Below, one piece after another: positions 38,455 to 63,325 of a DNA stretch of 64,000 bases; position 1 is the first letter of the stretch; every line of letters begins with the position of its first letter. The DNA is from Rubrobacter tropicus (GTDB lineage: Bacteria > Actinomycetota > Rubrobacteria > Rubrobacterales > Rubrobacteraceae): contig NZ_CP045119.1 in NCBI RefSeq assembly GCF_011492945.1, positions 3,658,001 to 3,722,000 of the forward strand, in the 5' to 3' direction. A model generated the notes under the pieces. It worked only from the letters and a program-made list of their open reading frames with translations. It was not told the origin of the DNA and searched no databases. A program made the position numbers and the translations under genes.

Positions 38455-38480
38455 CGGCACATCTGCCAACTGGCACATTT
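38455..38480. promoter_or_regulatory. 26-bp EPS motif, site A
   Basis: CGGCACAT-CT-GCCA-AC-TGGCACAT-TT, upstream of the glycosylphosphotransferase. It is 22/26 identical to site B and has the central dyad TGCCA-AC-TGGCA. The half-element GGCACAT is repeated with a 16-base period. Confidence 0.65.
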
Positions 38481-38600
38481 GGAGACACTGTTCAGCAGAT
38501 GGGACATCGAAGAACAACAGACCCTCGGGTTCGTATCCTAGAGCGGACCGCTGATAGCTGAAAGCGGAGGCGAAGCCGCAGCGGGTTGATCGCTGACCGC

Positions 38601-38645
38601 GCGGCTTGCAGAGGCATTGGCCTCTGCAAGCCGCTCTAGGCTTTT
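38601..38645 (+). terminator. 15-bp perfect hairpin followed by CTTTT
   Basis: GCGGCTTGCAGAGGC (38601-38615) pairs perfectly with 38620-38634 around an ATTG loop and is followed by TCTAGGCTTTT. This is the strongest intrinsic terminator in the window. There is no plus-strand gene ahead of it, so it may end an unannotated RNA from about 38480-38600. Confidence 0.7.
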
Positions 38646-38976
38646 GCGCGCGGGGCGACCACCGATACGACACCTCGACGATCCGCAACGCGCTCATGCT
38701 CGGTGCGATTGGCGTCTTTCAAGCTTGCTATCAGTCCTCGGCCAGCGTTCACGCGGCAAAACGTTTACGAAAGTATCGTGCGCATTCCTGTTGATCGTAT
38801 TCTGGGTGGGCACGAATTCTGAACCGATCGACTCCCTCCACACCTACACTGTGAACCCTCCCTTGCGGAACAGGGACCGGGCAAATCCCTCACGAGTACC
38901 GTTTTTTCGTAGGATGCACGGAACGTCTCTCGGTGTCATCATAAGCATCGTGCAACCGTCCGAATCGAAACAGACG
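38646..38976. other. Upstream region of a small membrane protein gene
   Basis: About 330 bases between the hairpin and the plus-strand membrane protein gene. It is AT-richer than average (38740-38900) and probably holds that gene's promoter. The open frame through it lacks any family feature. Confidence 0.35.
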
Positions 38977-39591
38977 ATGGGACCAGGGTCATCACTTGTG
39001 CATTGGGGCAGAGTAGGAGCAATGCTTGCCGGGGTGTTGTTCGTAGTGTGGGGCTACTTCCATGGCCTTGAAAGCTCTTCGGCCCCCCAGGAGGCCGTCG
39101 CAAAAGTACTGGGTTTCGTCGTACCGCTGCTATTCTTGGCAGGCGCGGCAGCGTTCTGTGTTTGGAGTAGGGAACGGTTAGGTTGGGTTGAGTCAGTTGG
39201 GCTCGTCTTTTGTAGCCTGGGCGCGGGGCTTGGCTTCTTATACCGTGTCTTGGATGCCTCTGGTGCCGTAGATGCGGCGGCGAGGTATGCGTACCTTGCC
39301 GGAAAAGGCTTGCCGCCTTTCTTGTTCGACTGGTTTCCTTGCTTACTGCTGGGTTTGACCCTGGTGGGCCTCGCCCATCTTGGCGCGACAACCTCGCAAG
39401 ATTATCGCTGGTTGCCCCTGGCTACGGGACTGTCAGGTTGGCTCTACCACTTTAGCGACGTGAATGGTTTCATCGAGGCTCGCTGGGCTCACGTGCTCTT
39501 CGGGATATTGTTCGGCTGCGGCTGGGTGATGTTGGGTGGCATGATCAGGACCAACAAGAGCGGCCGATACTCCGACGACCCTGGCGGCTAA
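38977..39591 (+). CDS. Hypothetical six-helix membrane protein
   Basis: Protein of 204 residues with hydrophobic segments at about 12-30, 42-62, 70-90, 112-132, 145-160 and 170-190, and a short charged tail. I do not recognise the family. The ATG at 38977 is used; an ATG at 39022 has a closer AGGAG and would remove part of the segment before helix 1. The gene points away from the exopolysaccharide operon and towards the riboswitch-controlled gene but is 490 bases from it. A transport or membrane-sensing role is possible but not shown. Confidence 0.65.
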   Translation: MGPGSSLVHWGRVGAMLAGVLFVVWGYFHGLESSSAPQEAVAKVLGFVVPLLFLAGAAAFCVWSRERLGWVESVGLVFCSLGAGLGFLYRVLDASGAVDAAARYAYLAGKGLPPFLFDWFPCLLLGLTLVGLAHLGATTSQDYRWLPLATGLSGWLYHFSDVNGFIEARWAHVLFGILFGCGWVMLGGMIRTNKSGRYSDDPGG

Positions 39592-40000
39592 GACTCCGTA
39601 AAGAGAGGGCCGCCGCCGCGATTTGACTTTGTCGCTGTGAGATTCTTGGGAGCTCGCGGATAGCGGTGGCGCATCCTGCGTACAGGGCGTCTTTGGGCCG
39701 TCGCGCCGCTTTCGTTGGTGTATCTACGGAGGATACGAGCCGGACTCACGGGGGCCACAACTTGAGAGCGTTCGAAGAATTATCTTAGATCGAAGGGCCC
39801 ACCCCTCCGGCTTTGGAGCGACCGTGTGGCGTGTGTCGGATGCGCTTGTTCTTGTCGTGGAAGAGCTTCGCGCTCCATACTCCTGTTCTCTCGAACACCA
39901 AACCTGGGAACCGATCGGACCGGCAGCTTGCGTCCATTTCACCCGCTAGTGTGCGCATTTACTCCGGTCCCACGTGCATTTGTAGTAGACTGGGCAAACT
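39592..40000. other. Upstream region of the riboswitch transcript
   Basis: About 400 bases with no credible gene. The promoter of the riboswitch transcript should lie near its end, around 39940-39990. The sequence is neither repetitive nor strongly structured. Confidence 0.35.
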
Positions 40001-40078
40001 CACGAAAAGGCAAACCCGTCGCGAGGCGGAGGACGCAAAGCCACGGACCTCTCAGGAGGTGGCCGGGCTACCGAAGGA
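40001..40078 (+). ncRNA. Cyclic-di-GMP-I (GEMM) riboswitch
   Basis: The conserved core is present in order: AAGGCAAACC (40007-40016), a short stem capped by a GCGA tetraloop (40021-40024), GGACGCAAAGCC (40031-40042), a hairpin ACCTC-TCAG-GAGGT (40048-40060) and GGCCGGGCTACCGA (40061-40074). These are the hallmark elements of the GEMM-I cyclic-di-GMP aptamer. The aptamer ends directly at the ribosome site AGGAGGGA of the next gene, so translational control is likely. Whether it turns expression on or off cannot be read from the sequence. Confidence 0.92.
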
Positions 40079-40084
40079 GGGAAG

Positions 40085-41107
40085 ATGGCACGCGGCCCGC
40101 TTGTTATATTATTAGCATTTATCGCAAGCTCCGTCGTATGGTGGGGAGAGGGAACAGCACGGGCGGCGACCGACTGTTCGGGCGTTCAGATCCGCGAAGG
40201 CGACGACATCTCTCTGGTGGCAGACGCCCATGGCGCGCGGACGACGTTCTGCATCAACGACGGCGAGTACCCTGTCGTTCGGTCCGTCAAAGTACAGTCG
40301 GGGGACCGCTTCCGGGGAGTGTACGGTGACGGAACTAGGCCGATAGTAAGGGGCGCAGGCGCTACTACCATCTTCGACACGTTCGGCTCCGACTCAGCTG
40401 CGATCATCGGCCTTCGGGTTCAGGGGGCCATCGGCAGCGAGGCCTGTTCTCCCAACTGCGGGCGGGGCATAGGCGGGGGTGGCACGAACCTCTACGTCTC
40501 TGATGCGCACCTCATGCACAACGCCAATCAGGGCATAGGCGGGGTGGGTCCCGGTCTACTCGTGGTCAACTCCGTGTTCGACGACAACGGGTACGATTCC
40601 ACCTTCACGGGCGAGACTGCCGGGCCGGTGAGCGCGGCGGGCATCAAGAGCGTCAACTCGATGATCATCAGAAACTCGGTCGTCAAAGACAACCGCTGGG
40701 CCGGCCTGTGGTGCGACATCGACTGCACCCGTTTCGAGGTGCACGATTCGACCGTCGTCAGGAACGGCAAGGTCGGCGTGCACGACGAGATCTCCTCCGG
40801 TGCCGCCATCGTCGAGGGTAGTACCATCAGGTACAATGGCGGCCTCGCGGCGGCGGGATCTCGACGGGCAGACCTGATCGCCCTCAACAGCAAGAACTTG
40901 AACGTATTCGGCAACACCTTCGGCGGCAAAAACGGCGCCGCCCTCATTGTCGCTTTCGATGAGGCGAGATTCAGGGCGGAGCCCAGAGGCGATGGGGGAT
41001 TCGCCCTAAGGAATATCGATTTTCACCACAACCGTCTGAACGGTGACGCCCTCTCGGGGTGCGGGCTGCCCGACTGGCGGGTGCACTGCTACAAGAATGG
41101 TAGATGA
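40085..41107 (+). CDS. Secreted right-handed beta-helix protein under c-di-GMP riboswitch
   Basis: Protein of 340 residues with a signal peptide (hydrophobic 5-20, likely cleavage after GTARA at about residue 28). The mature part has beta-helix repeats rich in G, N, D and short beta-strands: GIKSVNSMIIRNSVVKDNRW and VHDSTVVRNGKVGVHDE are typical rungs. Conserved cysteines occur in TDCSG, TTFCIND, CSPNCGRGIGG and WCDIDC. This fold occurs in polysaccharide lyases and surface-binding proteins, but no lyase catalytic motif is evident. It starts six bases after AGGAGG, immediately behind the riboswitch. It is a paralogue of the minus-strand gene ending at 41654. Confidence 0.85.
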   Translation: MARGPLVILLAFIASSVVWWGEGTARAATDCSGVQIREGDDISLVADAHGARTTFCINDGEYPVVRSVKVQSGDRFRGVYGDGTRPIVRGAGATTIFDTFGSDSAAIIGLRVQGAIGSEACSPNCGRGIGGGGTNLYVSDAHLMHNANQGIGGVGPGLLVVNSVFDDNGYDSTFTGETAGPVSAAGIKSVNSMIIRNSVVKDNRWAGLWCDIDCTRFEVHDSTVVRNGKVGVHDEISSGAAIVEGSTIRYNGGLAAAGSRRADLIALNSKNLNVFGNTFGGKNGAALIVAFDEARFRAEPRGDGGFALRNIDFHHNRLNGDALSGCGLPDWRVHCYKNGR

Positions 41108-41212
41108 GGGCGCTCGTACGCCCCGCGACTACCTTCATCTCCGCGTGGCGCGCCGACGATCTCCACGGTCGTGAAGGCCCCAACTTGCGGCGCAGCGACG
41201 GGGATTACCAAC

Positions 41213-41238
41213 GGGCTCGGTCTCTGGAGACCGAGCCC
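41213..41238. terminator. Hairpin between convergent beta-helix genes
   Basis: GGGCTCGGTCT (41213-41223) pairs perfectly with AGACCGAGCCC (41228-41238) around a CTGG loop. It lies about 105 bases after the plus-strand beta-helix gene and lacks a T run, as is common for high-GC hairpin terminators. It could serve both strands. Confidence 0.6.
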
Positions 41239-41653
41239 CGAATGTGCGGTTGCTCCCTCCGTCTGTTGCCACCGTCCTCACGGAATGCCGGCCGCGAGCA
41301 GGTGACCGGGTCGTAGCGAGATGGTTCGGCACGCCGCCTTTGACCCGCCCGCCTGTCTCATCGTTACGATACGGTCTCGGGGGATCACTACCAAAACAGG
41401 CTACGACACGATGGCGTACGCGCGCAGGTCATCTGGCACCGCCCCGGCGTCCCGAATCACAACGTTCAGCAAGGACCGAAATCCCCGAGGCCCTGACTCG
41501 CCCGACTGACGGCCGTTCTCACACTCCGATCGGCATGAACTCCGAGCAGGCAGCGTTGCGCCCATCCTCTAGAACGCCGGTTTCCTGGCCGTGACTCCTT
41601 CCCCGGTCGGGAAGGTAGCGAGGCCCCTGTCCGCGGAAGCTTCCGTTGCAGGA
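41239..41653. other. Convergent intergenic stretch
   Basis: About 415 bases between the hairpin and the stop of the minus-strand beta-helix gene. No gene, RNA motif or further strong hairpin is recognised. Confidence 0.35.
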
Positions 41654-42619
41654 CTAGAGGCATCCCACGCCCGAGAGCGTGCAGCCGACTATAGCGTCGC
41701 CGCCCATCGTGTTGTTGTAAATGCTGATGTTCCCGAGAAGCGGTGTCCAGTCGCGGTCGTCCTCGGCCACGTGGATACCGTAGTACGTGTTGCTCCCGAA
41801 GGCATTGCCGTACACCTCGGCATTGGCGGACGCGTAGATGATGAGCCCAGCGCGGCGCCCGGCCACCGCGGCGTTGGTCCCGTTGCCCCGTATAACGTTG
41901 TTGGCGAAGACGGCCGGACCGCTCGACGCTTCGTAGTGTATGCCCGCCTTGCCGTTCGCCGTGATCGTATTGTTCCTCACCTGAAAGGCGTCGCAGTCGT
42001 TGTCACACCATACGCCGGACCAGTAATTGTCGTGAACGCGAGAGTTGAGCACGGTCATCGAGTTGACGCTCTTGATGCCCGCCGCGCTCTGCGACTCGCC
42101 GAACCTCGCGAAGGCGGGACTTCCGTTGTGATCTATCCGGGAGTAGGTAACGAGAAGCCCGGGTCCCGTGCCCCCGATTCCCTGGTTCTGATTGTGGTGA
42201 GACCACACGTTGTTGATCGTGAGGTTCGTACCACCACCGATGCCTCTTCCGCAGTTCGGCTTGCAGTGGTCTCCGCCCACCGCGCCACTCATCCCGAGTC
42301 CCCGGATCGTGGCCCCGCGGGAACCGTTGGCATCGAACACGTGCTGCGCCTTCGTGGTCGTGACAGACGGACGTGTTCCATCGGAGAACATCCCGATAAA
42401 CCTGTCACGATTCTGGACCCTTACCGGGGTCGGGACAGCATAGTTGCCATCTTTGATGCAGAACGTCGTGCCAGCCCTGGCGTTGGCTGCCACGCTGGAA
42501 AGGTTCTGCCCCGGAGAGACCTGCTTGCCCGTGCAGGTCGCCCCCTCTGCCTGCGGGACGTAGGCAAAAGCCGAGAATAGCGTGGCCAAGGTCGCTGACA
42601 ACACCAACAAACGTTTCAC
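41654..42619 (-). CDS. Secreted right-handed beta-helix protein, paralogue without riboswitch
   Basis: Protein of 321 residues starting at GTG 42619, where GGAGG lies six bases upstream. A signal peptide (VKRLLVLSATLATLFSAFAY, cleavage near QAEGA) is followed by beta-helix rungs. The protein shares many blocks with the product of 40085: GTTFCIKDGNY, DGTRPSV, CKPNCGRGIGGG, NQGIGGTGPGLLV, SAAGIKSVNSM and WCDNDC. The cysteine pattern is conserved. No GEMM core is found in its leader, so the two paralogues are controlled differently. A surface or matrix role is inferred from secretion and the neighbouring exopolysaccharide genes. Confidence 0.83.
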   Translation of the reverse strand: MKRLLVLSATLATLFSAFAYVPQAEGATCTGKQVSPGQNLSSVAANARAGTTFCIKDGNYAVPTPVRVQNRDRFIGMFSDGTRPSVTTTKAQHVFDANGSRGATIRGLGMSGAVGGDHCKPNCGRGIGGGTNLTINNVWSHHNQNQGIGGTGPGLLVTYSRIDHNGSPAFARFGESQSAAGIKSVNSMTVLNSRVHDNYWSGVWCDNDCDAFQVRNNTITANGKAGIHYEASSGPAVFANNVIRGNGTNAAVAGRRAGLIIYASANAEVYGNAFGSNTYYGIHVAEDDRDWTPLLGNISIYNNTMGGDAIVGCTLSGVGCL

Positions 42620-42957
42620 GCTAGACCTCCGTCGTTTTTGCGCTCCCCTGCGATCCTCCTCACAATCTGCCCTTGCCGACTCAGTCCAGGCCGCCTGGGG
42701 CTCGGCTGTACCGGCCACCACAGCAAGCCCGGGCCACGGGTTCGTAAGACGCCCCTACGTAGCCAGAATCGCACGGAGGCCCTGCGAGTAGTACAGCCTA
42801 CAGCGAGAAGCTACGATTCCCCCTCCAAAGGAATTCTTTCGCAGCATCTTACGGTTTTTCTTTCGGCCAAGTATCTACTCAACTGGATACGCTGTATATT
42901 GGTCATCTGACCCATATTTTCTGACCGGCAGACCCATATCCGACCGGGATTACGACA
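42620..42957. promoter_or_regulatory. Leader region with paired GACCCATAT repeats
   Basis: GACCCATAT occurs twice, at 42909-42917 and 42931-42939, exactly 22 bases apart, in an AT-rich patch about 300 bases upstream of the beta-helix gene. The spacing of two helical turns suits a regulator site. The rest of this 338-base region has no gene. Confidence 0.35.
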
Positions 42958-43704
42958 CTAAGAATGCCCAGAGGAAGAGCCCCTATCTCTCGTGCCCCGC
43001 ACCAACCCCAACTCCGCGGCTTTGACGGCCGCCTGAGTGCGGTCAGAGACCTCTAGTTTGGAGATGATGTGTTCCAGATGCTTTTTCACCGTCGAGATGC
43101 TCACGTGAAGCTCCTGGGCGATCTGGTGGTTGGTGTTGCCCTTGACGAGGTACGGCAGCACATCGAGTTCCCGGGGGGTAAGGAGGGTTCCTCTGGCGGC
43201 CCTTTCTGACCGCGCGGGGGTTCGCCCGACCGGTAGGAACTTCGTCTGCTGCTCACGCCTGTTCTCGCCTTCCAGCCTCTTGAGAAGGCGCATAGCCACC
43301 TCGCGGTTGAAAGGAGACATGCCCTCAAGCGTCTTTTGTGCGGCGTTCAGCAGTTGGGCGGGCGTCGACCCTTTCAGAACGTAGCCGGCGGCGCCCAACC
43401 GTACCGCCTCCAGCAGGAGGTCTTCGCTCTCCCTGGTCGCCAGAAGGAGCACCCTCGTTCCGGGACATTCCTCCTTGAGCGCCCTGGCGGCTTCCATTTC
43501 GACGGCATCCGGTTGCGTGAGACCCACCAAAGCGATGTCCGGCCGGAGATCGCGACACAACTCGAGGGCCTCTCGCCCGTCCCGCGCCTCGCCGACCACG
43601 CGCAAGTCGGGCTCGCCCGAAAGTGCGGCCCGTATTCTCTCTCGCGCAAGGGCCTGGCGGTCCAGTATAAGCACCTTTGACGGCGCGGGGTCGTCGTTCC
43701 GCAT
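42958..43704 (-). CDS. NarL/LuxR-type regulator with pseudo-receiver domain
   Basis: Protein of 248 residues: receiver-like domain (about 8-125), linker, and LuxR helix-turn-helix (about 170-235) with LTPRELDVLPYLVKGNTNHQ and STVKKHLEHIISKLEVSDRTQ. The receiver fold is clear, but the phosphoacceptor is gone: RPDIALVGLTQPD has Gly where PDVVLMD has Asp. The acidic pair is also broken (VLILDRQAL instead of a DD motif), while the switch Lys in GYVLKGS remains. Classical phosphorylation is therefore unlikely. No histidine kinase is adjacent. It sits between the secreted beta-helix genes and is the only DNA-binding protein inside the surface locus, so it is a candidate regulator of the 26-bp motif. 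Confidence 0.88.
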   Translation of the reverse strand: MRNDDPAPSKVLILDRQALARERIRAALSGEPDLRVVGEARDGREALELCRDLRPDIALVGLTQPDAVEMEAARALKEECPGTRVLLLATRESEDLLLEAVRLGAAGYVLKGSTPAQLLNAAQKTLEGMSPFNREVAMRLLKRLEGENRREQQTKFLPVGRTPARSERAARGTLLTPRELDVLPYLVKGNTNHQIAQELHVSISTVKKHLEHIISKLEVSDRTQAAVKAAELGLVRGTRDRGSSSGHS

Positions 43705-44038: not shown

Positions 44039-46555
44039 TTACGGGACGGTCTTATTCGCCGAAAACTCCGAAGTGTTGCCCGTCGTGTCAGTCGCGGTCG
44101 CGGTTACGCGGTCTCCGCTTGCGACCCCGGTCACCGGCACCGAAAACGTACCGTCAGGGCCGGCGACGGACGAGCCGATGAACGTCTTGCCCTCGCCGTA
44201 GGGGCCCGTGGCTGAATCCGCGATAAAGACCTCGACGGTACATCCCACACAAGCCGTCCCCGTAACCGCAAGAGGCGTGGCCGTCTCTATTACAGGGAAG
44301 TTCAGCTGCTCGTTGGCGTCGCCGTCGACGTCGCCCGGGTCGTTGGGAGTATCTCTGCCAAGGGTCGGGAGGTCGATCCCGAGCCCTGCGTTGCCGAAGA
44401 TTGAGTTGCGTGTGATCGTGTTCCTGTCGCTGTCCGCACCGAAGATGCGCACGCCATTTACCCCGTTGTTCGCGACGACATTATCCGGCCCGACGTACGA
44501 GTCCGAGGAGTTGGTGCCGTTGATGCCGTCGATCTGCACGCCCGAGAGGGCGTTCGGTATAGCAGTGCCATCACGCGCGATGCCGATGCGGTTTCCGTGT
44601 ATCCGGGTACTCTTGGAGTTCTTCGTGACCAGGATCCCCCCCTTCGTGGTGCTGTTCCCGATCACGTTGTCGGCGACCACGTTGTCGACGGGCCTATCCT
44701 CGACCTGCACGTTCCAACCCTCGTGGGAAGCGTAGTCCGGGGCAGCGTTGCCGGAAAGATCGGTGCCGATAAAGTTCCCGACGACCCTGTTTCCCGTCAC
44801 GGCCACGCCGTGGGAGAGCTCGATGCCCTCCAGGCGGTTGCCGGAGATCACGTTGCGTTCGTACTGCTGGGTGCCTCCGATCTGGTTCTGGGCCGCGCTC
44901 AGGTTCAGGTCTACGCCGATCTTGAAGTTGGCCAACCGCTTGTTCCCAGCTGGTCCGAGGCCGATTATGTTGTTGACCACGCGGTTGGAGTTCGAGTTGG
45001 CGAAGAACGATATGCCCCTGCGGGAGTTTCCCGAGATAACGTTGCGGCCCTCGGGCGAAGCGACACCGATCGTGTTGCCGCTCGCGCCGTTCTGCACCCT
45101 GACGCCCTCCCCGTCGTCGACGAACGCCGCAGCGGAGAAGGTGGCGGCGGCGTTCGTCCCGACGAAATTGCCGGCGACCGTGTTGCTGCTGGCGTTGCCG
45201 CCGTACAGCCATATGGCCCTTCGCACCTTGAAGACAGAGAGACCGCGTACTTCGTTCCCGGGGGAGGTCATCGTGAGACCGTACACGCCCTCAGGAAACG
45301 CCTGGGAAGCGGTGATCTGCACCCGAATCTTGGCGTTGCTCGCCAGAGGGGCCGTGTTGGGCGACGACCCCGGCTGGGAATAGCCGTTGATCGTGGTCGG
45401 CCCGGTCTCGTCGCTGATAGTTGGCAGCGTGCTGCCTATCTGGATGCTCTTGACGCCCGTGCCGGGTATGTCGAAAGCTATCGTATCCGGTCCAGGGTGG
45501 AGGTTCGTCTCCTGAATGGCGGCCCGTAGGGTACAGCCGCCGTCGGCGGCGGCGCAGGTCCCGTCCCCGACGTCAGCGTCGACCCCGTCGCCCGTCGAGC
45601 TCACCGTGAACGTCGACACCTCCTGCGCCAGCGCCGGTCGCGGGGATAACCATTCGAAAAGCGAGGAGAGCGGGGCGATCAACGAGCTAGCCGACGACCT
45701 TCCAGCCCCCAGGTCCGCTGCAAATCCCGTCTCCGCCCCGTCGCCGTCGTAATCTGCGGCGATCGTCTGGAGGTCCGCAACATCGACGCAGCCGTCGCGG
45801 TTCACATCCCGGCTACGATCTTCCACGGAGCCACAGGCGCCGCCGGCCTCGCGCAGCGCCGTCCAGTCGAGCGCCACCTCCATGGCGTCGGCGTACGTGA
45901 CCCGTCCGTCTTCGGTCAGGTCGGAGGACCGAGGAGAAGGCACCGGCTCCCTCGAGCCTTGCGACACGACGTCCGGCGCGGGGTAAGAAGGGCCCGCGTT
46001 CCGGGGGCCGACTCGGACAACTACGCTCTTGTCTGCCGCGCGGACGCGCAACAGATTGCCGGTCGCGTCGACGAACTTCGTCTCGGCCAACTCGAACTCC
46101 AGAACACCCGTCCGGTTCGGGACCATGGTGACGGCGAAGGGTTCGACAGCGCCCCCCACGCCACGGGCGGCCTCCGGGGGCTCGTCCGACCGCGTGCATT
46201 CCCCCGTCGGACACGAGAACGCGCCGATGGAGATGCCCCAAGGCTGCTCTACCGGGCCCAGCGACTCGACATCGCGGCCGCTGCGGGAGAGATTCCCGTT
46301 TGTTTGAGAGAATCCAACGAGGTTCGCGGCCTGACGGTCGAAGACCAGGTTGGTTTCGTAGCCGCCGAGGTTGGTCGCGTTCTCTACGCTCAGCATGATC
46401 TTGATCGGTTGCCCGACGTCCACTCGTTCGGGGGCCGAGATGCGGAAGGATGGTCCGGGATCGGCCCGGGCAGACCGGGTCACATCAGGTATCCCCGCGC
46501 ACAACGCGAGCAAGACCGTTCCCACGACCAACAGGTGAATCGTACGTACCATCAT
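44039..46555 (-). CDS. Secreted cohesin-like/dockerin/CSLREA/beta-helix protein
   Basis: Exported protein of 838 residues. A signal peptide (about 1-31, ending SARA) is followed by a cohesin-like beta-sandwich (about 35-180; FRISAPERVDVGQPIKIMLS). Next come two EF-hand-like repeats resembling a dockerin (DLTEDGRVTYADAMEVALDW and DVNRDGCVDVADLQTIAADY), then a CSLREA-type segment (DGGCTLRAAIQETNLHPG). A long parallel beta-helix (about 380-740) of NxIxGN and GNxIGT rungs precedes a C-terminal Ig-like domain with SGDRVTATATDTTGNTSEFS. There is no membrane anchor or LPXTG. ATG at 46552 may be the true start, given the spacing to GGAGG. Site B lies 91 bases upstream. It is probably a matrix or adhesion protein. 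Confidence 0.85.
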   Translation of the reverse strand: MMVRTIHLLVVGTVLLALCAGIPDVTRSARADPGPSFRISAPERVDVGQPIKIMLSVENATNLGGYETNLVFDRQAANLVGFSQTNGNLSRSGRDVESLGPVEQPWGISIGAFSCPTGECTRSDEPPEAARGVGGAVEPFAVTMVPNRTGVLEFELAETKFVDATGNLLRVRAADKSVVVRVGPRNAGPSYPAPDVVSQGSREPVPSPRSSDLTEDGRVTYADAMEVALDWTALREAGGACGSVEDRSRDVNRDGCVDVADLQTIAADYDGDGAETGFAADLGAGRSSASSLIAPLSSLFEWLSPRPALAQEVSTFTVSSTGDGVDADVGDGTCAAADGGCTLRAAIQETNLHPGPDTIAFDIPGTGVKSIQIGSTLPTISDETGPTTINGYSQPGSSPNTAPLASNAKIRVQITASQAFPEGVYGLTMTSPGNEVRGLSVFKVRRAIWLYGGNASSNTVAGNFVGTNAAATFSAAAFVDDGEGVRVQNGASGNTIGVASPEGRNVISGNSRRGISFFANSNSNRVVNNIIGLGPAGNKRLANFKIGVDLNLSAAQNQIGGTQQYERNVISGNRLEGIELSHGVAVTGNRVVGNFIGTDLSGNAAPDYASHEGWNVQVEDRPVDNVVADNVIGNSTTKGGILVTKNSKSTRIHGNRIGIARDGTAIPNALSGVQIDGINGTNSSDSYVGPDNVVANNGVNGVRIFGADSDRNTITRNSIFGNAGLGIDLPTLGRDTPNDPGDVDGDANEQLNFPVIETATPLAVTGTACVGCTVEVFIADSATGPYGEGKTFIGSSVAGPDGTFSVPVTGVASGDRVTATATDTTGNTSEFSANKTVP

Positions 46556-46645
46556 CGCCTCCCCGCAGCCTTGCTATACGGCTCGCACGTTGCTACTAAC
46601 CTGAGCATGACGCCACAATTTCATAGTATGTTTGTTACGAAACAC

Positions 46646-46671
46646 CGGCGCATATGCCAGCTGGCACATCT
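46646..46671. promoter_or_regulatory. 26-bp EPS motif, site B
   Basis: CGGCGCAT-AT-GCCA-GC-TGGCACAT-CT, 91 bases upstream of the cohesin/beta-helix gene. It is the most symmetric copy, with a perfect TGCCAGCTGGCA palindrome at its centre. Confidence 0.65.
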
Positions 46672-46718: not shown

Positions 46719-47627
46719 TTACAGAGGCTGTCCCGCGATCCAGACCGAGAGATCTCGCCCTATAAGATCCTGTAGGGCGCGAATGTCTTTCTTGTAGCTT
46801 TGGAGCAATTCTGCGTAGGTCTCCCTGTCAGGGCGAGGCTTCTCGAGCAACCGCTGGTTGAGCCTCTGGCTCAACCCGTAGCGCACCTCTCCGGGCACGA
46901 GGGCTTTCATTGCCGACCTCAGCGGGTTGGGCTGCAGGAGCAGCTTTCCCAGGAGTCGATTTTTCGGGATCCCGGTGGCGTTGGGCCGCAACGAAGTATC
47001 GACCACGAAGTCTGGGTCCACCCCCAGAAACACGTAGATGTCTTTGAGGAAGCCCATCGGATTCGCCAGCAGGTCGTCGTACAGGTAGACGCGTACCTGC
47101 TCGCGCGGGAACACATCGAAGAAGCGCCCGACCTGGGCCGCGTAGAAGCCGGTCCGCTGGTAGTGCCAGATAAACTCCCACCCTTGCTCGATCCGCTCCT
47201 CCTCGGCGAGCAGCCCTTCTTTGAACGTCAAGTGCTCGCGTCCATCCCTTGCCACGTGCAGGTAGCTCGAGAAGGCCCTCTCGGCGGGGTTCCGGAGCAC
47301 GATGATGAGCTTCGCATCCGGAATGTGCCGATGGATGTTCTCCGCGGATCGGGCGGAGTACAAGTACCAGGGAGAGGCCTCGCCTATGGCCCCCTCACCG
47401 CACACTCCGGCGAACTGCTCCTTGTACGCCTCAAGGTCCGTGATAGCGGTTTCGGAGATCTTCTCGTCGCCGGGGCCTTTGAAATGGATGTTCTGTCCCT
47501 CAAAGGCAAAGAAGTTCGTCTCCTTGGTCGGGCCCATGTACACCTGAGGATGCTGCTTCAAGTAATGGTACAACGCGGTCGTTCCCGACTTGGCCGCGCC
47601 TACTACCAGGAAGTTCGGAAGCGTCAT
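46719..47627 (-). CDS. Sulfotransferase family protein
   Basis: Cytoplasmic PAPS-dependent sulfotransferase-like protein of about 302 residues. The 5'-phosphosulfate loop is PNFLVVGAAKSGTTALYHYL at the N terminus, and the 3'-phosphate-binding region is IIVLRNPAERAFSSYLH. The ATG at 47627 makes the P-loop begin at residue 3, as in the paralogue at 51999; the ORF could begin at 47639. It follows site H and precedes the cohesin/beta-helix gene but has its own leader. It probably sulfates a polysaccharide unit, since two close paralogues flank the gmd/fcl genes; the acceptor is unknown. Confidence 0.88.
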   Translation of the reverse strand: MTLPNFLVVGAAKSGTTALYHYLKQHPQVYMGPTKETNFFAFEGQNIHFKGPGDEKISETAITDLEAYKEQFAGVCGEGAIGEASPWYLYSARSAENIHRHIPDAKLIIVLRNPAERAFSSYLHVARDGREHLTFKEGLLAEEERIEQGWEFIWHYQRTGFYAAQVGRFFDVFPREQVRVYLYDDLLANPMGFLKDIYVFLGVDPDFVVDTSLRPNATGIPKNRLLGKLLLQPNPLRSAMKALVPGEVRYGLSQRLNQRLLEKPRPDRETYAELLQSYKKDIRALQDLIGRDLSVWIAGQPL

Positions 47628-47762
47628 TTCGCCGCCCACGCGTCACGCGTGGTGGAGGGTAAGGGTTCGACCCCCTCCGGTGTCAACAGGGATAGCCCTT
47701 CTCTCGAAACCCGCTTTATCGGTTTACAGAGCATGGCGTGGAGTATAGATTTCGGGTAGATG

Positions 47763-47788
47763 CGGCGCATGGGTCAAGCAGCATATTC
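47763..47788. promoter_or_regulatory. 26-bp EPS motif, site H
   Basis: CGGCGCAT-GG-GTCA-AG-CAGCATAT-TC, about 136 bases upstream of a sulfotransferase gene. The first eight bases are identical to site B; 16/26 match overall. It is one of the weaker copies. Confidence 0.45.
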
Positions 47789-52853: not shown

Positions 52854-52921
52854 GCGCATCTCCTCACAAAACAGCGAACTACAGTCTGATTCAGGGACGA
52901 TGATATTCGGGGTTAGTCTCT

Positions 52922-52947
52922 TGGCACATCCTCCACCTGGCACATTT
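52922..52947. promoter_or_regulatory. 26-bp EPS motif, site C
   Basis: TGGCACAT-CC-TCCA-CC-TGGCACAT-TT, about 70 bases upstream of the WecG-type gene. It is about 20/26 identical to site A, with both GGCACAT halves perfect and 16 bases apart. Confidence 0.65.
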
Positions 52948-54202: not shown

Positions 54203-55577
54203 CTTGCCTCCTCATCACGCTTATAAAAACGAGAACCAAACCGAAGGTGAGGACGTGCCAGGACCAGACGAGGTCCACAGCGAAGAACGAACGCACGCAC
54301 AAGATCGTCAAGACGCCCAAGCTCTCGAACCAGAGCAAGCGCGCAAGCTTATGCCTCACGACGTAAGGGTAGAGCCTGATCAACCAAAACCACGTTGCGG
54401 CCAGCGCCAGCGAGAACAGAAGCAGCCCCACGATCCCCGTATCCAAGGCCACCTCGACCCAGGTGCTGTGCACGGTGGAGACGTCTTCACCCAACGCATC
54501 CTGCAGTACGTAACGTCCGCCGACGTTGGCCCCGTAACCACCCAGAGGACTGTTTCCCAGCGCCTCGATACTCGATCGCCAGTAATCGACTCTTCCGGTC
54601 AGGGAAGCCAGGTTCTCATCGGTCTGGTTTCTCTGCATGAACGCGTATATCAAATGACTGTATCGGGTGAGGAATGCCACGCCCATCAGGCCGCCTGAGA
54701 GGAGCAAGAGGCCAAAGCGGCGGCCAGCGACCAAGACAACGATCACGGCCACACAGAGGGCTAGTATCGGAGAGCGACTCTGCGTCAGCACCATGGTAAC
54801 CAAAGAGACCGCCAGTAACGATCCGTAGAGTACCTTGGAGCCGGGCCAAAAGAGCAACCTCACGATGGCGACGATCCCCATTACAGCGCCGATGTGGCCC
54901 ACCGAGTTCGCCGCGATCGCCGGCAGGGCCCCCTGTATCCAAAAGCCCAGTATCCCCTCTCGATAGCCTGACATAATGGCGTACTCGGGCCACACAAGCA
55001 TGCCCAGGTATACGCTGGCGATCAACGAGAAGATCAGAAACCAACCAAAGTCGAAAACCTTCTTGACCGCGTACGGCTGGGAGCGCGGATCCCTCACGGT
55101 CGAGGCGATCAAAGAAACCGTTAGAGCGAAGACGGCCAGCATGGCGCAGTACTCGGAGGCCTTGATCAGCGTACCCGCAGAGGAGACGGACCACAGCGTA
55201 GAAAGCAAACCCCACGTGGCGAAGAGGGAGAACAAACCCAGCACGCCCGTCCGCAGGTCCGAGAAGAAAGCGAACCTGTACCTGGCACCGACCGCCAGGA
55301 GCAACAGAACGCCGAGAGACAGGAAAGCCAGCCGCACGTAGTTGTCGGCTCCCGCCTCTTCCACGGAGAAGCGTACGTCCCTCGAAAGGTTCCACACGGA
55401 GCTGGCGCCGAGCAGGAGCACCCAGACTAGATAGAGCCAGCGAAAGGACAGAACGTGAAAAGGCGGACGGGTAACTTTCCAGCCGACTAGCAACAGCGCC
55501 GGTAGTCCGGCGGTCGTAGCGATCGCCCCCAACAATATGAGCGATACGACGTCATCACCCAGGCGCGCCTGCAACAC
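54120..55577 (-). CDS. O-antigen polymerase/ligase-type membrane protein (Wzy-like)
   Basis: Polytopic protein of 485 residues with about 12 membrane helices. The large loop before the last helices contains the family pattern SLTGRVDYWRSSIEALGNSPLGGYG followed by VHSTWVEVALDTGIVG, as in the O-antigen ligase/polymerase family. GTG start at 55577 with AAAGGA nearby. The gene leads a two-gene unit with the GT4 transferase, and motif site I is 72 bases upstream. It is the first of two such proteins in the window. One may polymerise and the other ligate or polymerise a different unit. Confidence 0.88.
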   Translation of the reverse strand: MLQARLGDDVVSLILLGAIATTAGLPALLLVGWKVTRPPFHVLSFRWLYLVWVLLLGASSVWNLSRDVRFSVEEAGADNYVRLAFLSLGVLLLLAVGARYRFAFFSDLRTGVLGLFSLFATWGLLSTLWSVSSAGTLIKASEYCAMLAVFALTVSLIASTVRDPRSQPYAVKKVFDFGWFLIFSLIASVYLGMLVWPEYAIMSGYREGILGFWIQGALPAIAANSVGHIGAVMGIVAIVRLLFWPGSKVLYGSLLAVSLVTMVLTQSRSPILALCVAVIVVLVAGRRFGLLLLSGGLMGVAFLTRYSHLIYAFMQRNQTDENLASLTGRVDYWRSSIEALGNSPLGGYGANVGGRYVLQDALGEDVSTVHSTWVEVALDTGIVGLLLFSLALAATWFWLIRLYPYVVRHKLARLLWFESLGVLTILCVRSFFAVDLVWSWHVLTFGLVLVFISVMRRQVVGTTHAGDVVAQPVPAARRRRSGVYR

Positions 55578-55648
55578 AGAATCCTTTCGGTCGTGATCCG
55601 CATCCCCTCGGGGTATGTCCGGTAAGGACCGTACCGGGCAGGACGTAC

Positions 55649-55674
55649 CGGCGCATCGGCCAGGTAGCCTATCT
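55649..55674. promoter_or_regulatory. 26-bp EPS motif, site I
   Basis: CGGCGCAT-CG-GCCA-GG-TAGCCTAT-CT, 72 bases upstream of the Wzy-like gene. It is 20/26 identical to site B, including the whole first half and GCCA. Confidence 0.6.
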
Positions 55675-55750: not shown

Positions 55751-56500
55751 TCACTGCCGCAACAAGTACTCGTAGATAGCCGTGGCCTCGGACAAGAGAG
55801 CCTTCCGTCCTGGCGCCCGCAGGGCGGGCTTGATCCTGCTCTTATGCTCAGTCTTGGCCGCAGAGGGGCGTGCGATCCGCGTCTCTGATATCCCTCCCGC
55901 GTTGCGCTTCTTGTGCATTTCTTCTATGCGAGAGTAGACCCTGTTCACGTTCTCCTCGGTGTGGGAGAACGTAGAGAAGGAGGTCCCGAATTTCTGGTTT
56001 ACGCGCTCGAGGATCGCGCCGTAATCCGTCGTTACCTCTTCGAAGGATGCCAGGACGCAAGCGTTGCGGTGCGCGGCCACCGCCTTGTAGAAAGATACGT
56101 AGTGCTCTATCGCCCGGTCCATCGGTTGCGGATCCCTTATCAACCACGAAGTGATTGCGTCTTCAGGCTCCCGGATAAGTACGATGGTAGGTATTCGCCA
56201 CCGTGCGGCGCACACTACTTGTGCTGGGTAGTGTAGGTGGTGGGCTACGCGAAACTCCTCGCGCTGCGCCTGTTTGAAAGCCCATACCGAGAAGGTATTC
56301 GCGGATCTCGGGTACCCCTCTATCACCAGGTGCGTGTCCCGGCGGACACAGCGGCGGTCGCGTTTGATCCGGCAAACGGCCGAAAACAGAACGGGGTTGC
56401 GGCCCACGAAGCGTTGGAGTTCCCTTTTCGTATCTCTCACGTTTTTCGATGTCGCCGTGCTCGACACGCTGTCGGCGGGCGCTGCATGACCATCCTTCAA
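55751..56500 (-). CDS. Divergent sulfotransferase-like P-loop protein
   Basis: Protein of 249 residues. The N-terminal P-loop variant reads LVIEGYPRSANTFSVWAF, where the usual GAxKSGTT is replaced by GYPRSANT, and a 3'-phosphate-like site IVLIREPEDAITSWLI follows. These motifs place it in the sulfotransferase superfamily but apart from the three other copies. The C-terminal third is basic. It has its own leader containing motif site E. It could sulfate the same polymer at a different position or a lipid carrier. The substrate is uncertain and the activity assignment moderately secure. Confidence 0.72.
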   Translation of the reverse strand: MKDGHAAPADSVSSTATSKNVRDTKRELQRFVGRNPVLFSAVCRIKRDRRCVRRDTHLVIEGYPRSANTFSVWAFKQAQREEFRVAHHLHYPAQVVCAARWRIPTIVLIREPEDAITSWLIRDPQPMDRAIEHYVSFYKAVAAHRNACVLASFEEVTTDYGAILERVNQKFGTSFSTFSHTEENVNRVYSRIEEMHKKRNAGGISETRIARPSAAKTEHKSRIKPALRAPGRKALLSEATAIYEYLLRQ

Positions 56501-56570
56501 GGCGTACCCCCTGGCACCAAGGCTACTACGCGATCTGTTTCTGCGAACATGCTAAGCAGCGGGCCAGCAC

Positions 56571-56596
56571 ATCGCACCCGCCGGGTGACACATCTT
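56571..56596. promoter_or_regulatory. 26-bp EPS motif, site E
   Basis: CATCGCAC-CC-GCCG-GG-TGACACAT-CT, 71 bases upstream of the divergent sulfotransferase-like gene; 18/26 match site B. The right half is nearly perfect. Confidence 0.5.
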
Positions 56597-56665
56597 GCGC
56601 CCCGCGAAACTCCCGGAGATCGAGAGCCGCCCGTGGTCGACGCACCGGTGGGAGCCGAGGGGTCG

Positions 56666-59873: not shown

Positions 59874-60662
59874 CTAGCTTGCCCCCTTCTTTTTGGGCTT
59901 CTTCGGGAGCCTGAACTCCCGAACGGCGGCGAAAGTGGGGACCCCGGAGACCTGCATGGCCTCCTCTGGTGAGCGCCAGCTGTCGTCCAGGTACTCGAGC
60001 AGGAAAGCCAGGCCGACGCCCAACATGAGACCCAGCACGAGGGCCAGAAGCCCGTTACGTAAGAGGTTCGGGCTTATGGGAGAAGACGGCACCGCAGCTT
60101 TTTCCCAGGTCACCGCAGTGATAGAGTTGGCGCTCGAGCTGACCTCGGAGACCTGTCCCGAAAACTCGTCTCCTATGGTATTGGCGATCTGGCTGGCCCT
60201 CTCGGGATCCGAGTCCGTGTAGGAGACCTCGATAACCTGCGTCTCGGCGACCTGCTCCACGCTCATGCCAGCGAGGAATTCGTCGGGGGTCGTCTGCAGA
60301 TCGAGGTTCTGGATAACCGCGTCCGCCACGGTGCGCGTGTAGGCCAGCTCCGCCATGGACTGGGTGAGTTGCTGCAGGCCTATGACGTCGTTCGATTCGG
60401 GGGTCAGCCCCTGCCCCTGGCCGACAAGCACCTTGATGGAGGCCTGGTACATCGGGGTCTGCGTGAGGCCGTAACCCACCGCCGCCCCGACGACCAGGAT
60501 GGTCATTAGCAGGATGACCCACGCTTTCCTCCAGAGCGTCTCCAGCAGGTCTCTTACGGAGAGGACCTCCTGGCCCCGGGGAGCGTCCGCCGGCCAACCT
60601 GCGTCGTGGTCGCCGATCGTCGGGGCGGCGTGTCGCGTGCCGTTGGGCAGCATACCTTCCAA
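59874..60662 (-). CDS. Chain-length determinant / BY-kinase adaptor (Wzz/CpsC type)
   Basis: Membrane protein of about 262 residues. Wzz domain with the first helix (VILLMTILVVGAAVGYGL), a large extracytoplasmic region with ISYTD-like VIEVSYTDSDPERASQIANT, and the second helix (NGLLALVLGLMLGVGLAFLL). It ends with the cytoplasmic activating tail DDSWRSPEEAMQVSGVPTFA. The TTG at 60662 with AGGAGG about ten bases upstream is preferred; an ATG at 60653 is the alternative. It activates the kinase encoded next. Site D lies about 123 bases upstream. The long ORF reaching 60806 would translate through that motif. Confidence 0.9.
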   Translation of the reverse strand: MEGMLPNGTRHAAPTIGDHDAGWPADAPRGQEVLSVRDLLETLWRKAWVILLMTILVVGAAVGYGLTQTPMYQASIKVLVGQGQGLTPESNDVIGLQQLTQSMAELAYTRTVADAVIQNLDLQTTPDEFLAGMSVEQVAETQVIEVSYTDSDPERASQIANTIGDEFSGQVSEVSSSANSITAVTWEKAAVPSSPISPNLLRNGLLALVLGLMLGVGLAFLLEYLDDSWRSPEEAMQVSGVPTFAAVREFRLPKKPKKKGAS

Positions 60663-60784
60663 GTCGTCTACACCTCCTGTCTCGCTATGGGCATTCCGGT
60701 AAGCGCGGCCGAACCTCCTGCACCAACGCCCAGCTTCTCTGTCCGAAACCCGATCTTGGGGCGATACTATGAAACGCTGGGAAA

Positions 60785-60810
60785 TTCGGCATGGGCCACC
60801 CGGCATATCT
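60785..60810. promoter_or_regulatory. 26-bp EPS motif, site D
   Basis: TTCGGCAT-GG-GCCA-CC-CGGCATAT-CT, upstream of the Wzz/Wze pair; 17/26 match site B. Part of it also belongs to a perfect inverted repeat, so some of the match may come from that structure. Confidence 0.5.
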
Positions 60811-60844
60811 TGTGCCTGGTTACCCCGGGGGATGCCGGGTGGCC
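60794..60844 (-). terminator. 13-bp perfect inverted repeat
   Basis: GGCCACCCGGCAT (60794-60806) and ATGCCGGGTGGCC (60832-60844) are perfect complements separated by 25 bases that include CCCCGGGG. It lies just downstream of the Wzy/TPR gene and could terminate that operon. It overlaps site D in the promoter of the following genes. Confidence 0.5.
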
Positions 60845-60894
60845 CGTCTCTGGCGGTGACGCGCGGACGGGATCGCCGGGAGGCTCGCGATCAC

Positions 60895-62910
60895 CTAGTT
60901 GTCGACCACCGACTCTCCGCCCACGGACCCTCCGTCGACTCGACGCCCCACGTGTCTTTTGAGGTCGTCGTCGAACGGGTTGCGTGCGGCCGCTTCTTGG
61001 TAGTACTCGCGTGCTTTGTCTTCTCGCCCCCGCTTCTCGTAGAACCTGGCGGCCAGGACGTACGGCGCGTAGTGACGGGGGTTGAGGTCTATCGCCCGCC
61101 CGTAGGCGTCCTCCGCCCCCTCGGCGGCACCCATGCGGGAGGCCAGCTCCGCCTCTCTCTGGGGCAGTCGGGAATCCAGCGGGTCGTATTCCTGTGCGCG
61201 CTGCACGGCCGCGAGTTTTGTCTCGAGGCTTCCGGCCGCGTAACTGCGGGAGAGCTGAACGTCCGCCGCGTACAGCGGCGCGACGACGAGCACCGCCAGG
61301 GCCGCGATGCCGACCCCGCCCGCGCGCAGCGGCCACCGGAGCGGGTGCGGCGCGAGTTCCAACTTCCAGGGCGCCACCAACATTGCCAGGTAGACGATGG
61401 CAGGCAGGGTCACGGCGGGAATCTGCCAGAACCACTCGGCGCCCGAGTGGACGAACCAGTAGGCCACCGCGGCCGTCAGGGCCCCGACCTGCGCCTTGCC
61501 CTCCGAGTGGAAGTTCTTGAACCGCTGCCACAGGCCGGCGACCACGCATACGCCCAGAAAGCCGAAGAAGAGGACGCCGCCTACGATACCGCGCTCGGCC
61601 AGCACCTCCAATGGCAGGGAGTGCGGCTGGCGCGCGAAACCGCTCGCCCGCTCCCGCTCCTGATAGTAAGTGGCCTCCCAATTCTGCGTGCCGACGCCGA
61701 GGACGGGACGCCCGGAGAAGTCTTCCCACGCCACCTGCCACAGGGTGTAGCGTCCTGTGCCGGAGATGCTCAGATAGCGGCTCTGGTCCTCGCCAGCGGT
61801 GTCGTTGGTCCTGAACGCCTCCCACTTTTGCTCTGCCACGCTCACGGGCTCCCCAAAGCGTTCGACAAAGACGGTAGCCCCGACCGTGAGCGCCACGAGG
61901 CACCCGGCCAGCACGAGCCCGCCGACGACCCGCTTGGCCGCAGCCGGGGGCCTCCACCGCACGTCGATGAGGCCCCAGATGAGGCCGTAGAGCCCCACGC
62001 CCGCGGCGCCCAACCAGACGGCCGGGAGCGCCGCGTCGAGCGCCGCCGGGGTGCTCCCTCCGTTCGAAGACACCACGTACACCGCGTTCAGGCCCGGGAA
62101 TGCGAGGTAGAGCACGCCCGCCACCGGGGCGAGGGCGAGCAGCCCGCGCAGGCGCTGCCCGGAGAGCAAAAAGTAGACCGGCAATGAGGCGGCGAGTGCC
62201 ACCATCGCCCCGCGCGACTGGGTGAGGACGGCCAGGTTCAGGCCAAGGACCGCGCCGGCGAGGACCGCGCCGCGCAGCACCGGATTTACCCGCCGGGAGC
62301 CGCCGAGGTAGACGGCGACCCACAACGAAACCAGCAGGAAGGCGGCCTCGCCATTGTAGTAGCCCACGGTGCCGACCAGCCGATCGTTGAAGAAGGAGGC
62401 GTCGGTCCGGGACGGAAGCGCCAGCAGGGTGAGGGCGGCGACGGCGGCCGGTCCGAGCACGGAGGCGGCGAGGACCCACCGCCGGGACGCCCCAAGGGCG
62501 ACGAGCGCCACCGTCGTCAGGAAGACGAGCAAGTAGAGGTACGTCTGTCCCGCGCCGAGCCAGGCGTCGCCCTTGTTGGGCGACCACAGCACGGAGGCCA
62601 GCGTCCAGGCCGTGTAGGCGACAAAGAGCGCGAGCGCGAGGACGCCCCACCGGAGCCTGGCGCCGCCGAAGGGCGCCACCGCCGCCACGAGGAACGCCAC
62701 CGTCGCCACGACAAACGCGCAGGGCGCCCAGTTCCCCACAAAGTAACCACCGTTCGCGTCGCCCATCCACGCGGCGAGCAGCACGGTCACGACGAGGGCT
62801 ACGGTAGGGTACAGCCTCTCCTGGTTCTTGGACGCCTGCGTGCTCCTCCTGAACGCCGCGAGGAGGCGGTTTGAAGAGCCCCTGGGTTCCACGATACCGA
62901 TCCCGAACAT
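60895..62910 (-). CDS. O-antigen ligase/polymerase-type protein with TPR-like tail
   Basis: Polytopic protein of 671 residues. About 12 helices (about 30-520) include the family loop RYTLWQVAWEDFSGRPVLG and then QPHSLPLEVLAERGIVGG. The C-terminal 120 residues are extracytoplasmic or cytoplasmic tetratricopeptide-like helices (AVQRAQEYDPLDSRLPQREA, AYGRAIDLNPRHYAPYVLAA). Such fusions occur in polymerases of Gram-positive exopolysaccharide loci. ATG at 62910 with GGAGGG nine bases upstream. It is 22 bases after the LPXTG gene and probably co-transcribed with it. The ligase versus polymerase role is undecided. Confidence 0.88.
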   Translation of the reverse strand: MFGIGIVEPRGSSNRLLAAFRRSTQASKNQERLYPTVALVVTVLLAAWMGDANGGYFVGNWAPCAFVVATVAFLVAAVAPFGGARLRWGVLALALFVAYTAWTLASVLWSPNKGDAWLGAGQTYLYLLVFLTTVALVALGASRRWVLAASVLGPAAVAALTLLALPSRTDASFFNDRLVGTVGYYNGEAAFLLVSLWVAVYLGGSRRVNPVLRGAVLAGAVLGLNLAVLTQSRGAMVALAASLPVYFLLSGQRLRGLLALAPVAGVLYLAFPGLNAVYVVSSNGGSTPAALDAALPAVWLGAAGVGLYGLIWGLIDVRWRPPAAAKRVVGGLVLAGCLVALTVGATVFVERFGEPVSVAEQKWEAFRTNDTAGEDQSRYLSISGTGRYTLWQVAWEDFSGRPVLGVGTQNWEATYYQERERASGFARQPHSLPLEVLAERGIVGGVLFFGFLGVCVVAGLWQRFKNFHSEGKAQVGALTAAVAYWFVHSGAEWFWQIPAVTLPAIVYLAMLVAPWKLELAPHPLRWPLRAGGVGIAALAVLVVAPLYAADVQLSRSYAAGSLETKLAAVQRAQEYDPLDSRLPQREAELASRMGAAEGAEDAYGRAIDLNPRHYAPYVLAARFYEKRGREDKAREYYQEAAARNPFDDDLKRHVGRRVDGGSVGGESVVDN

Positions 62911-62932
62911 ACCGGCGCCCTCCGGACGTGCC

Positions 62933-63205
62933 CTAGCCGCGCCCCGCGCAGCGACGGACGAGGGCTATGCCGGTGCCCGTCACGATCAGGGCGGCACCGA
63001 CGAACAGGATCAAGGGCCCCCCGGTGTCGGGCAAGACGCTCAACGTGCCGGAGACCCGGCTCGCGTGGTCCATGGTATCGGTGGGCGATCCGTACTGGCC
63101 CTCCCGCGACTGCGCTTGCGCCGACGCGGCGAGGACGAGCATCGTGAGGATCGCGAACGCGCACCCCGAGAGCCTGGCACCGAGATGCGACTGGATTGCG
63201 CTCAT
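62933..63205 (-). CDS. Tiny LPXTG cell-wall-anchored protein
   Basis: Protein of 90 residues. Signal peptide (about 1-32, LTMLVLAASAQAQ), a mature stretch of only about 30 residues, the sortase motif LPDTGG, a membrane helix (LILFVGAALIVTGTGIALV) and the basic tail RRCAGRG. It therefore has all sorting elements but almost no exposed domain. ATG at 63205 has GGAGG five bases upstream. It heads the unit with the Wzy/TPR gene, and motif site F is 95 bases upstream. No sortase gene is in the window. Possible roles are a spacer, a polymer attachment site or a small surface signal. Confidence 0.85.
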   Translation of the reverse strand: MSAIQSHLGARLSGCAFAILTMLVLAASAQAQSREGQYGSPTDTMDHASRVSGTLSVLPDTGGPLILFVGAALIVTGTGIALVRRCAGRG

Positions 63206-63299
63206 AGGAACCTCCGGTTTGGTCTGTGCACGCGGCGCATCCCGCAATTCGCCTCCCCTTACGCCCATCTTTGCGAAGAGGATAGGTAGGAAGGGTTTG

Positions 63300-63325
63300 A
63301 CGTACAAGGGCCACATGGCATATGT
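63300..63325. promoter_or_regulatory. 26-bp EPS motif, site F
   Basis: ACGTACAA-GG-GCCA-CA-TGGCATAT-GT, 95 bases upstream of the LPXTG gene; 16/26 match site A. GCCA and the right half are kept, the left half is weak. Confidence 0.45.

Follow-up and report, generated by a model that had tools for sequence, protein, structure and literature searches.

The described systems closest to the element reported here are operators of NarL- and LuxR-type regulators. The 7-2-7 operators of NarL in Escherichia coli (ogt, yeaR) adjoin the −35 element, with the ogt operator at −44.5 (PMC7419079, accessible part), the lux boxes of LuxR-type regulators are centred at −42.5 (PMC4471428, accessible part), and ComA of Bacillus subtilis, a NarL-type activator, acts at promoters that carry both an inverted and a direct repeat, with class I/II contacts (PMC4797271, accessible part). 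Here, we describe a 25-bp motif upstream of minus-strand exopolysaccharide and surface genes of Rubrobacter tropicus, found in a stretch of 64,000 nucleotides (the window, G000:C1:3658001-3722000 of a 4.58-Mb genome) and beyond its end. We propose that this motif serves as the operator in class II promoters that depend on an activator, and we name RR1, a response regulator of the NarL type, as the likeliest activator; we consider this reading probable. Because the 25-base signal stands at a fixed step from the core promoter and recurs in relatives, one activator protein probably docks there and would co-switch about a dozen surface genes.

Compared with these systems, as far as the accessible parts of the accounts describe them, the motif resembles the NarL 7-2-7 operators in being an inverted repeat with a 2-bp centre, in lying near or over the −35 position and in pointing to a NarL-type regulator, and it differs from them in half-site sequence, in an extra GYGCC arm and in its centre (−42.5 versus −44.5 for NarL). 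With the lux box it shares the dyad at −42.5 and a candidate regulator of the same helix-turn-helix superfamily, whereas the site sequence is unrelated to the lux box and RR1 has a receiver, not the homoserine-lactone domain of LuxR. Unlike in ComA promoters, with their separate TTGCGG repeats, the repeats here overlap in one 25-bp unit that includes a 16-bp RATRYGCC repeat. The best relatives of RR1 with solved structures are VraR (5hev, E 5.1e-38) and DevR (3c3w, E 2.2e-33), a likeness drawn from the regulator proteins alone, and NarL is also among them (1a04, E 1.6e-31). The accessible part of the open-licence literature searched for Rubrobacter and for the motif itself showed no description of the motif and no exopolysaccharide regulator of Rubrobacteraceae. 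The family-wide operator-promoter is real, and the surface regulon that we predict from it would be a new one of a known kind; sequence alone here predicts a Rubrobacteraceae regulon of surface polysaccharides and proteins, its promoters included, and names a candidate for its regulator.

Promoter architecture

Read in gene direction, the consensus is AA-ARATRTGCCR-nn-YGGCnGATGYGCC, 16-17 bp, TAnnnT: an inverted repeat with a 2-bp centre, partly symmetrical arms and an extra right arm, followed at a short distance by a putative −10 box. The sites, scored with a weight matrix made from relatives, are as follows (offsets are those of TAnnnT).

Site A, 38456..38480 (minus strand): putative operator upstream of gene 36883-38427 for a WcaJ-type sugar transferase; matrix score 35.6; −10 TAGCAT, 38434-38439, offset 17
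Site B, 46647..46671 (minus strand): upstream of the repeat protein 44039-46555; score 31.9; −10 TACTAT, 46623-46628, offset 19
Site H, 47764..47788 (minus strand): upstream of the sulfotransferase 46719-47639; score 18.3; −10 TATACT, 47742-47747, offset 17
Site C, 52923..52947 (minus strand): upstream of a WecG-type transferase, likely start 52859; score 29.4; −10 TATCAT, 52900-52905, offset 18
Site I, 55650..55674 (minus strand): upstream of the Wzy_C ligase-like gene 54120-55577; score 29.8; −10 TACGGT, 55628-55633, offset 17
Site E, 56571..56595 (minus strand): upstream of the open reading frame 55751-56500, no Pfam match; score 16.1; −10 TAGCAT, 56549-56554, offset 17
Site D, 60786..60810 (minus strand): upstream of a Wzz-type gene, start probably ~60653-60662; score 17.2; −10 TAGTAT, 60764-60769, offset 17
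Site F, 63301..63325 (minus strand): upstream of a 90-residue LPDTG-motif protein, start 63205; score 20.2; −10 TATCCT, 63279-63284, offset 17
Past the window end (minus strand): four more sites found with the relatives' matrix, at extended coordinates 67676, 68944, 70240 and 74193 (window numbering continued beyond 64000, into L007 and L008)
Weak possible site, 42893..42917 (minus strand): upstream of the beta-helix gene 41654-42721; scores 8.5 (25-bp matrix) and 12.4 (second scoring); no TAnnnT at the expected offset

TAnnnT follows 11 of the 12 own sites (nine at offset 17, C at 18 and B at 19) and 79 of 114 non-redundant sites of relatives (offset 16-19), compared with a mean of 0.2 and a maximum of 2 for own windows of the same width elsewhere, and a mean of 2.6 and a maximum of 12 for those of relatives. 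With the hexamer set at −12 to −7 and the expected transcription start placed from the −10 box, the motif reaches from about −53 to −29, its dyad is centred at about −42.5 (−43.5 at offset 18) and the ATGYGC of its right arm occupies the −35 slot, in which no TTGACA-like hexamer is conserved. Beyond the motif and the −10 box, conservation is near zero except for an A-rich left edge and a weak C at d5, and the profile of the relatives' sites has a weak purine bias at the expected start. An operator at a fixed distance from the −10 box that overlaps the −35 slot has the layout of a class II promoter, and activators of the LuxR/NarL type overlap −35 when centred at such a position. The original prediction had taken the motif for a possible regulon site in gene leaders; this stands, with the correction that the motif is part of the promoter, at fixed spacing to the −10 box.

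We propose that the inverted repeat AT(n2)GCCR-nn-YGGC(n2)AT, centred at about −42.5, would be occupied by a dimer, with the right arm filling the −35 slot. Since no TTGACA-like hexamer is conserved in that slot, RNA polymerase carrying the primary sigma factor would be brought to the −10 box by the activator. The binding protein, activation as opposed to repression, and the start points are what we infer from the DNA. At site A, the expected transcription start falls exactly on the ATG (38427) of the long WcaJ frame; either this transcript is leaderless or the true start codon lies further in.

Recurrence in the genome and in relatives

The shared motif is real and stronger than was claimed in the original prediction, which had proposed a scan with a weight matrix. 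We built the 25-bp matrix from 122 hits in relatives, with own-genome sites excluded (114 are non-redundant once near-identical ones are removed), and it recovers all eight window sites plus the four past the window end. When the 103-kb region was Markov-shuffled three times, the top scores were 13.6, 16.2 and 9.9; by score, sites D (17.2) and E (16.1) are weak, but TAnnnT follows each of them at offset 17, the usual one. A 27-bp matrix gives no score of 10 or more in window positions 1-38000 or in extended positions 75000-103000. Genome-wide, the earlier consensus with at most three mismatches matches six times, always within 3696455-3726968 (31 kb), and the 25-mer form nine times, of which eight lie in 3696456-3732217, with no match in either control; the ninth, at 3463092, is outside the region and resembles the V2 variant described below. 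When a degenerate motif is combined with the −10 box, 11 of 13 matches in the whole genome fall in the region (control 1), and relaxing the pattern by one base adds site C and three matches elsewhere (control 2). The good matches cluster in one exopolysaccharide region of ~36 kb that extends beyond the window end, and none comparably good are spread over random positions of the genome.

Across 36 Rubrobacteraceae genomes (own included), the 25-mer pattern has 135 matches versus 17 for the reversed pattern, and across 24 other genomes of the phylum nine versus four in the control. We used 131 of the 135 family matches, having dropped three duplicates (G024:C1:924551, G018:C6:376205 and G026:C583:8620) and the reverse reading of a listed site (G028:C172:5974). 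The pattern position left free is C in 100 of these 131, which argues independently that the element is real. Some family matches are clearly false, such as those inside sigma-factor genes (3 of 89 downstream proteins match Sigma70_r3). Together, the genome-wide scans with controls and the scores of the relatives' matrix against the shuffles rule out a chance origin.

All eight sequences quoted in the original prediction are present where it placed them, and counting by eye gives the same identities for A and B (22/26) and for B and I (20/26). The similarity of A and C is real and comes to 22/26 by eye, not the "about 20" given before; copy E is a real site whose register was off by one base, the matching 26-mer being 56570-56595. 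Motif orientation follows the gene, because a weak plus-strand site (G000:C1:3727079-3727124, overlapping 25-mer score 10.3) precedes the plus-strand open reading frame L007:6089-6523.

A sister motif, V2 (RATRNNCCANNTGGGGGATGYGCC, at most two mismatches), has 122 matches in 28 of the 36 family genomes, a count that includes some sites of the main motif (V1), compared with one match of the reversed control in all 36. V2 has the left edge and the GATGYGCC arm of V1 and differs in the inner half-sites; TAnnnT comes after 12 of 16 non-redundant examples, spaced as in V1. Its own-genome matches are scattered and include genome positions 3463092, 1261536, 2068804 and 2956285. It is possible, though doubtful, that promoters of the Rubrobacteraceae follow a lineage-specific, diversified format. 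The frame common to them would consist of an A-rich edge, a RAT left arm, GATGYGCC at the −35 position and TAnnnT, the inner half-sites would have been re-coded for different members of an expanded GerE family, with GCCR/YGGC of V1 serving the surface regulon and YCCA/TGGG of V2 used elsewhere, and a co-inherited pseudo-receiver without the phospho-acceptor Asp would tune the V1 regulator. Side by side, V1 and V2 offer a natural set for studying how DNA specificity changes in LuxR-type regulators.

Candidate regulators

RR1 is the leading candidate for the activator. The proteins in question are the following.

RR1, L007:7288-8067 (minus strand): NarL-type response regulator with an intact receiver and a GerE domain; genome 3728324, 6-7 kb past the window end
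Kinase adjacent to RR1, L007:8179-10875: PAS, GAF, HisKA_3 and HATPase_c domains, a kinase of the HisKA_3 type
Pseudo-receiver gene, L007:6713-7192 (minus strand)
RR2, 42958..43704 (minus strand): NarL-type, Response_reg and GerE domains; receiver with G at the position of the phospho-acceptor Asp

RR1 and RR2 are the receiver-plus-GerE regulators encoded beside the targets, and among 46 GerE matches in the genome only these two (3728324 and 3701018) lie inside the region. The protein at 42958-43704, named as the first candidate in the original prediction, is outranked by RR1 because its receiver lacks the phospho-acceptor Asp. RR1 would act as the activator; its gene forms a module with those for the PAS/GAF histidine kinase and for a receiver-like protein that lacks the Asp, and the two motif sites in this module suggest that it is autoregulated.

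RR1 homologs (E <=1e-50) were found in 24 of the 36 family genomes, at 30 loci, and relatives at 58-63% identity come from six Rubrobacteraceae / Rubrobacter taiwanensis records. A strong motif (score of at least 18) lies within 1.5 kb in 13 of the 30 loci; in 10 of these 13 it stands 13-118 bp beyond the end of the response-regulator alignment, and in six of those 10 (G018, G017, G023, G019, G027 and G002:C115) the pseudo-receiver is the next gene. By comparison, 74 loci of response-regulator homologs from records not naming Rubrobacteraceae (1,317,923 bases) hold no site of at least 18 and one that reaches 16, and 10 loci of more distant response regulators from RR1-negative family genomes hold none of at least 14. 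Fifteen of the 36 genomes have both RR1 and the motif, two the motif only, nine RR1 only and 10 neither (Fisher p 0.014), with a mean of 3.54 motif sites per genome with RR1 versus 1.25 without (p 0.005), both values being uncorrected for kinship. In a tree of 41 response-regulator proteins, all 13 motif-linked ones fall in one clade of 31 rows (support 100/98) that includes RR2, a paralog on a long branch; within this RR1 clade, the tree did not narrow the binder.

The pseudo-receiver gene is present in 18 of the 36 family genomes, often directly behind RR1-clade genes. Its product has no Pfam match, and its AlphaFold model (153 residues, nine sequences) has a mean predicted local distance difference test score of 81; most of the top Foldseek matches are receiver domains, the first being StyR (1yio, E 7.3e-6). 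The own copy has LLAPGL where the phospho-acceptor Asp is expected (placed by eye). The protein apparently has a receiver fold without this Asp, and we speculate that it may compete or pair with RR1. Uncorrected for kinship, the gene and the motif occur together with exceptions (15 genomes with both, two with the motif only, three with the gene only and 16 with neither; Fisher p 3e-5), and genomes with it have a mean of 5.11 motif sites versus 0.44 in those without (p 2.4e-6).

Weighing the alternatives

That the operator-promoter is real and bound by another protein (RR2, some other GerE protein among the 46, or a member of another regulator family) is rather unlikely. The number of GerE matches speaks for it, as do the place of RR2, which lies within the region and belongs to the RR1 clade, the existence of V2, which shows more than one regulator using this promoter format, and the sites in G033 and G034, where no RR1 match was found at E 1e-50; it sits poorly with the presence of only RR1 and RR2 in the region, with RR1-clade genes that repeatedly adjoin sites, and with the lack of sites of at least 14 at all 10 loci of distant regulators. 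A repressor operator, in which a protein over −53 to −29 blocks RNA polymerase, would be as compatible with the overlap of the −35 slot as an activator is; we consider it improbable, because a promoter with no conserved TTGACA-like −35 would be poor when unaided and because the sites follow gene direction, which a symmetrical repressor would not need. The fixed spacing to a downstream box would also suit the promoter of an alternative sigma factor, an explanation that we find very improbable: at 25 bp, with a dyad of 18 bp, the element is long for a −35 box, and the TAnnnT downstream of it is typical of the primary sigma factor. A sigma-54 promoter (signature GG-N10-GC) was rejected by eye for its wrong spacing. 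The WhiG consensus of R. radiotolerans, TAAA/GCCGATAA, linked with type IV pili in a study that also mapped 5' ends across that genome (PMC8325347, accessible part), does not fit either, and a WhiG/FliA promoter (TAAA as −35, GCCGATAA as −10) was rejected by eye as a misfit to the site profile. Equally improbable are an RNA leader element, whether for antitermination or of the riboswitch kind, and a dispersed repeat or a recombination site. The location within the leaders that precede long polysaccharide operons, always oriented the same way to the gene, would agree with such elements, whereas the motif ends ~28 bp upstream of the expected start, the testable dyad positions do not covary (m7-m16 defined the set and were excluded from the test) and the single Rfam match in 36000-64000 (40000-40076) lies off the sites, so that a structured RNA was rejected. 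Duplicated leaders and a dispersed repeat were likewise rejected, on the flat conservation of the flanks.

Several observations weigh against a class II promoter activated by RR1, the reading we prefer. The 46 GerE proteins are many possible binders, 17 of the 30 RR1-family loci have no strong site, and the R. taiwanensis locus has none of at least 14. Linkage to the motif is scattered within the RR1 clade, with 109 of 500 shuffles as low; nine genomes have RR1 and fewer than two sites, and G033 and G034 have at least two sites and no RR1 match at E 1e-50. As for the pseudo-receiver, G006 and G034 have the motif (at least two sites) without it, G008, G019 and G029 have it without the motif by site count, and the leader of the pseudo-receiver gene scores only 5 in G004, although the RR1 of that genome is 91% identical. 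The own site ahead of this gene (70240) has a weak score and no TAnnnT at offset 15-20. Finally, the family genomes are related and some are incomplete, and the statistics ignore phylogeny.

Genes behind the motif

Within the window, the motif precedes genes for a WcaJ-type sugar transferase, a repeat protein (44039-46555, with an N-terminal signal by eye), a sulfotransferase, a WecG-type transferase, a Wzy_C ligase-like protein, an open reading frame without a Pfam match, Wzz and a small LPxTG-type protein. Past the window end, the targets would be the precursor of a cluster resembling those for ribosomally synthesized and post-translationally modified peptides (RiPP-like), another small protein of the LPxTG type, the pseudo-receiver gene and the kinase-response regulator operon, whose start is 318 bp from its motif site. 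A regulon of exopolysaccharide and surface genes, as originally predicted, is supported; its polysaccharide and surface core holds, and its scope widens to the RiPP-like cluster, the LPxTG proteins and the two-component operon.

For the relatives, 112 of the 122 sites have a downstream open reading frame call, giving 97 proteins after filtering of open, short and repeated ones, 89 of which were aligned and searched against Pfam. Among these 89 are DUF5122 (5), Bac_transf (4), Big_5 (4), RTX (4), Wzz (3) and Beta_helix (3). Homologous leaders contain a site of at least 16 for WcaJ (5/5), Wzy (1/1), WecG (1/2) and the histidine kinase (1/6), and in none of eight cases for three other gene sets. 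Overall, such a site is found in 8 of 22 leaders of genes behind own sites versus 4 of 60 leaders of the region's remaining genes, where only the contrast counts, since the loci compared were preselected for holding a site. The RR1 and RR2 rows of this comparison overlap. Five of the 12 regulated genes have no homolog with a full leader in these loci. The conservation in orthologous leaders that the original prediction had called for is thus seen for some genes, most clearly the WcaJ-type (5/5), and not for the homologs behind B and H (0/3 each).

The RiPP-like cluster (L007:2226-5235, minus strand) opens with a 63-residue precursor, whose start at extended 67611 has a strong motif upstream, followed by Transglut_core3, HPr-kinase-like, NTP_transf_5 and ABC genes. 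The start of the precursor resembles lasso-peptide leaders. We do not claim a working lasso pathway, because no cyclase-type gene was identified among the genes tested. The small proteins 62933-63205 and L007:5527-5808 (minus strand), behind sites F and 68944, have nearly the same C-terminal half, SREGQYGSPTDTxDHASRVSGTLSVLPDTGGPLILFVGAALIVTGTGIALVRR.

Three sulfotransferase genes (46719-47639, 47838-48788 and 51019-51999, minus strand) lie in the polysaccharide region, which suggests that the polysaccharide made by it is sulfated. The exopolysaccharide region also contains a c-di-GMP-I-GGC riboswitch aptamer at 40000-40076 on the plus strand (RF03167, 59 bits, exactly the gathering score, E 9.9e-12), which ends nine bases before the ATG of the plus-strand beta-helix gene 40085-41107.

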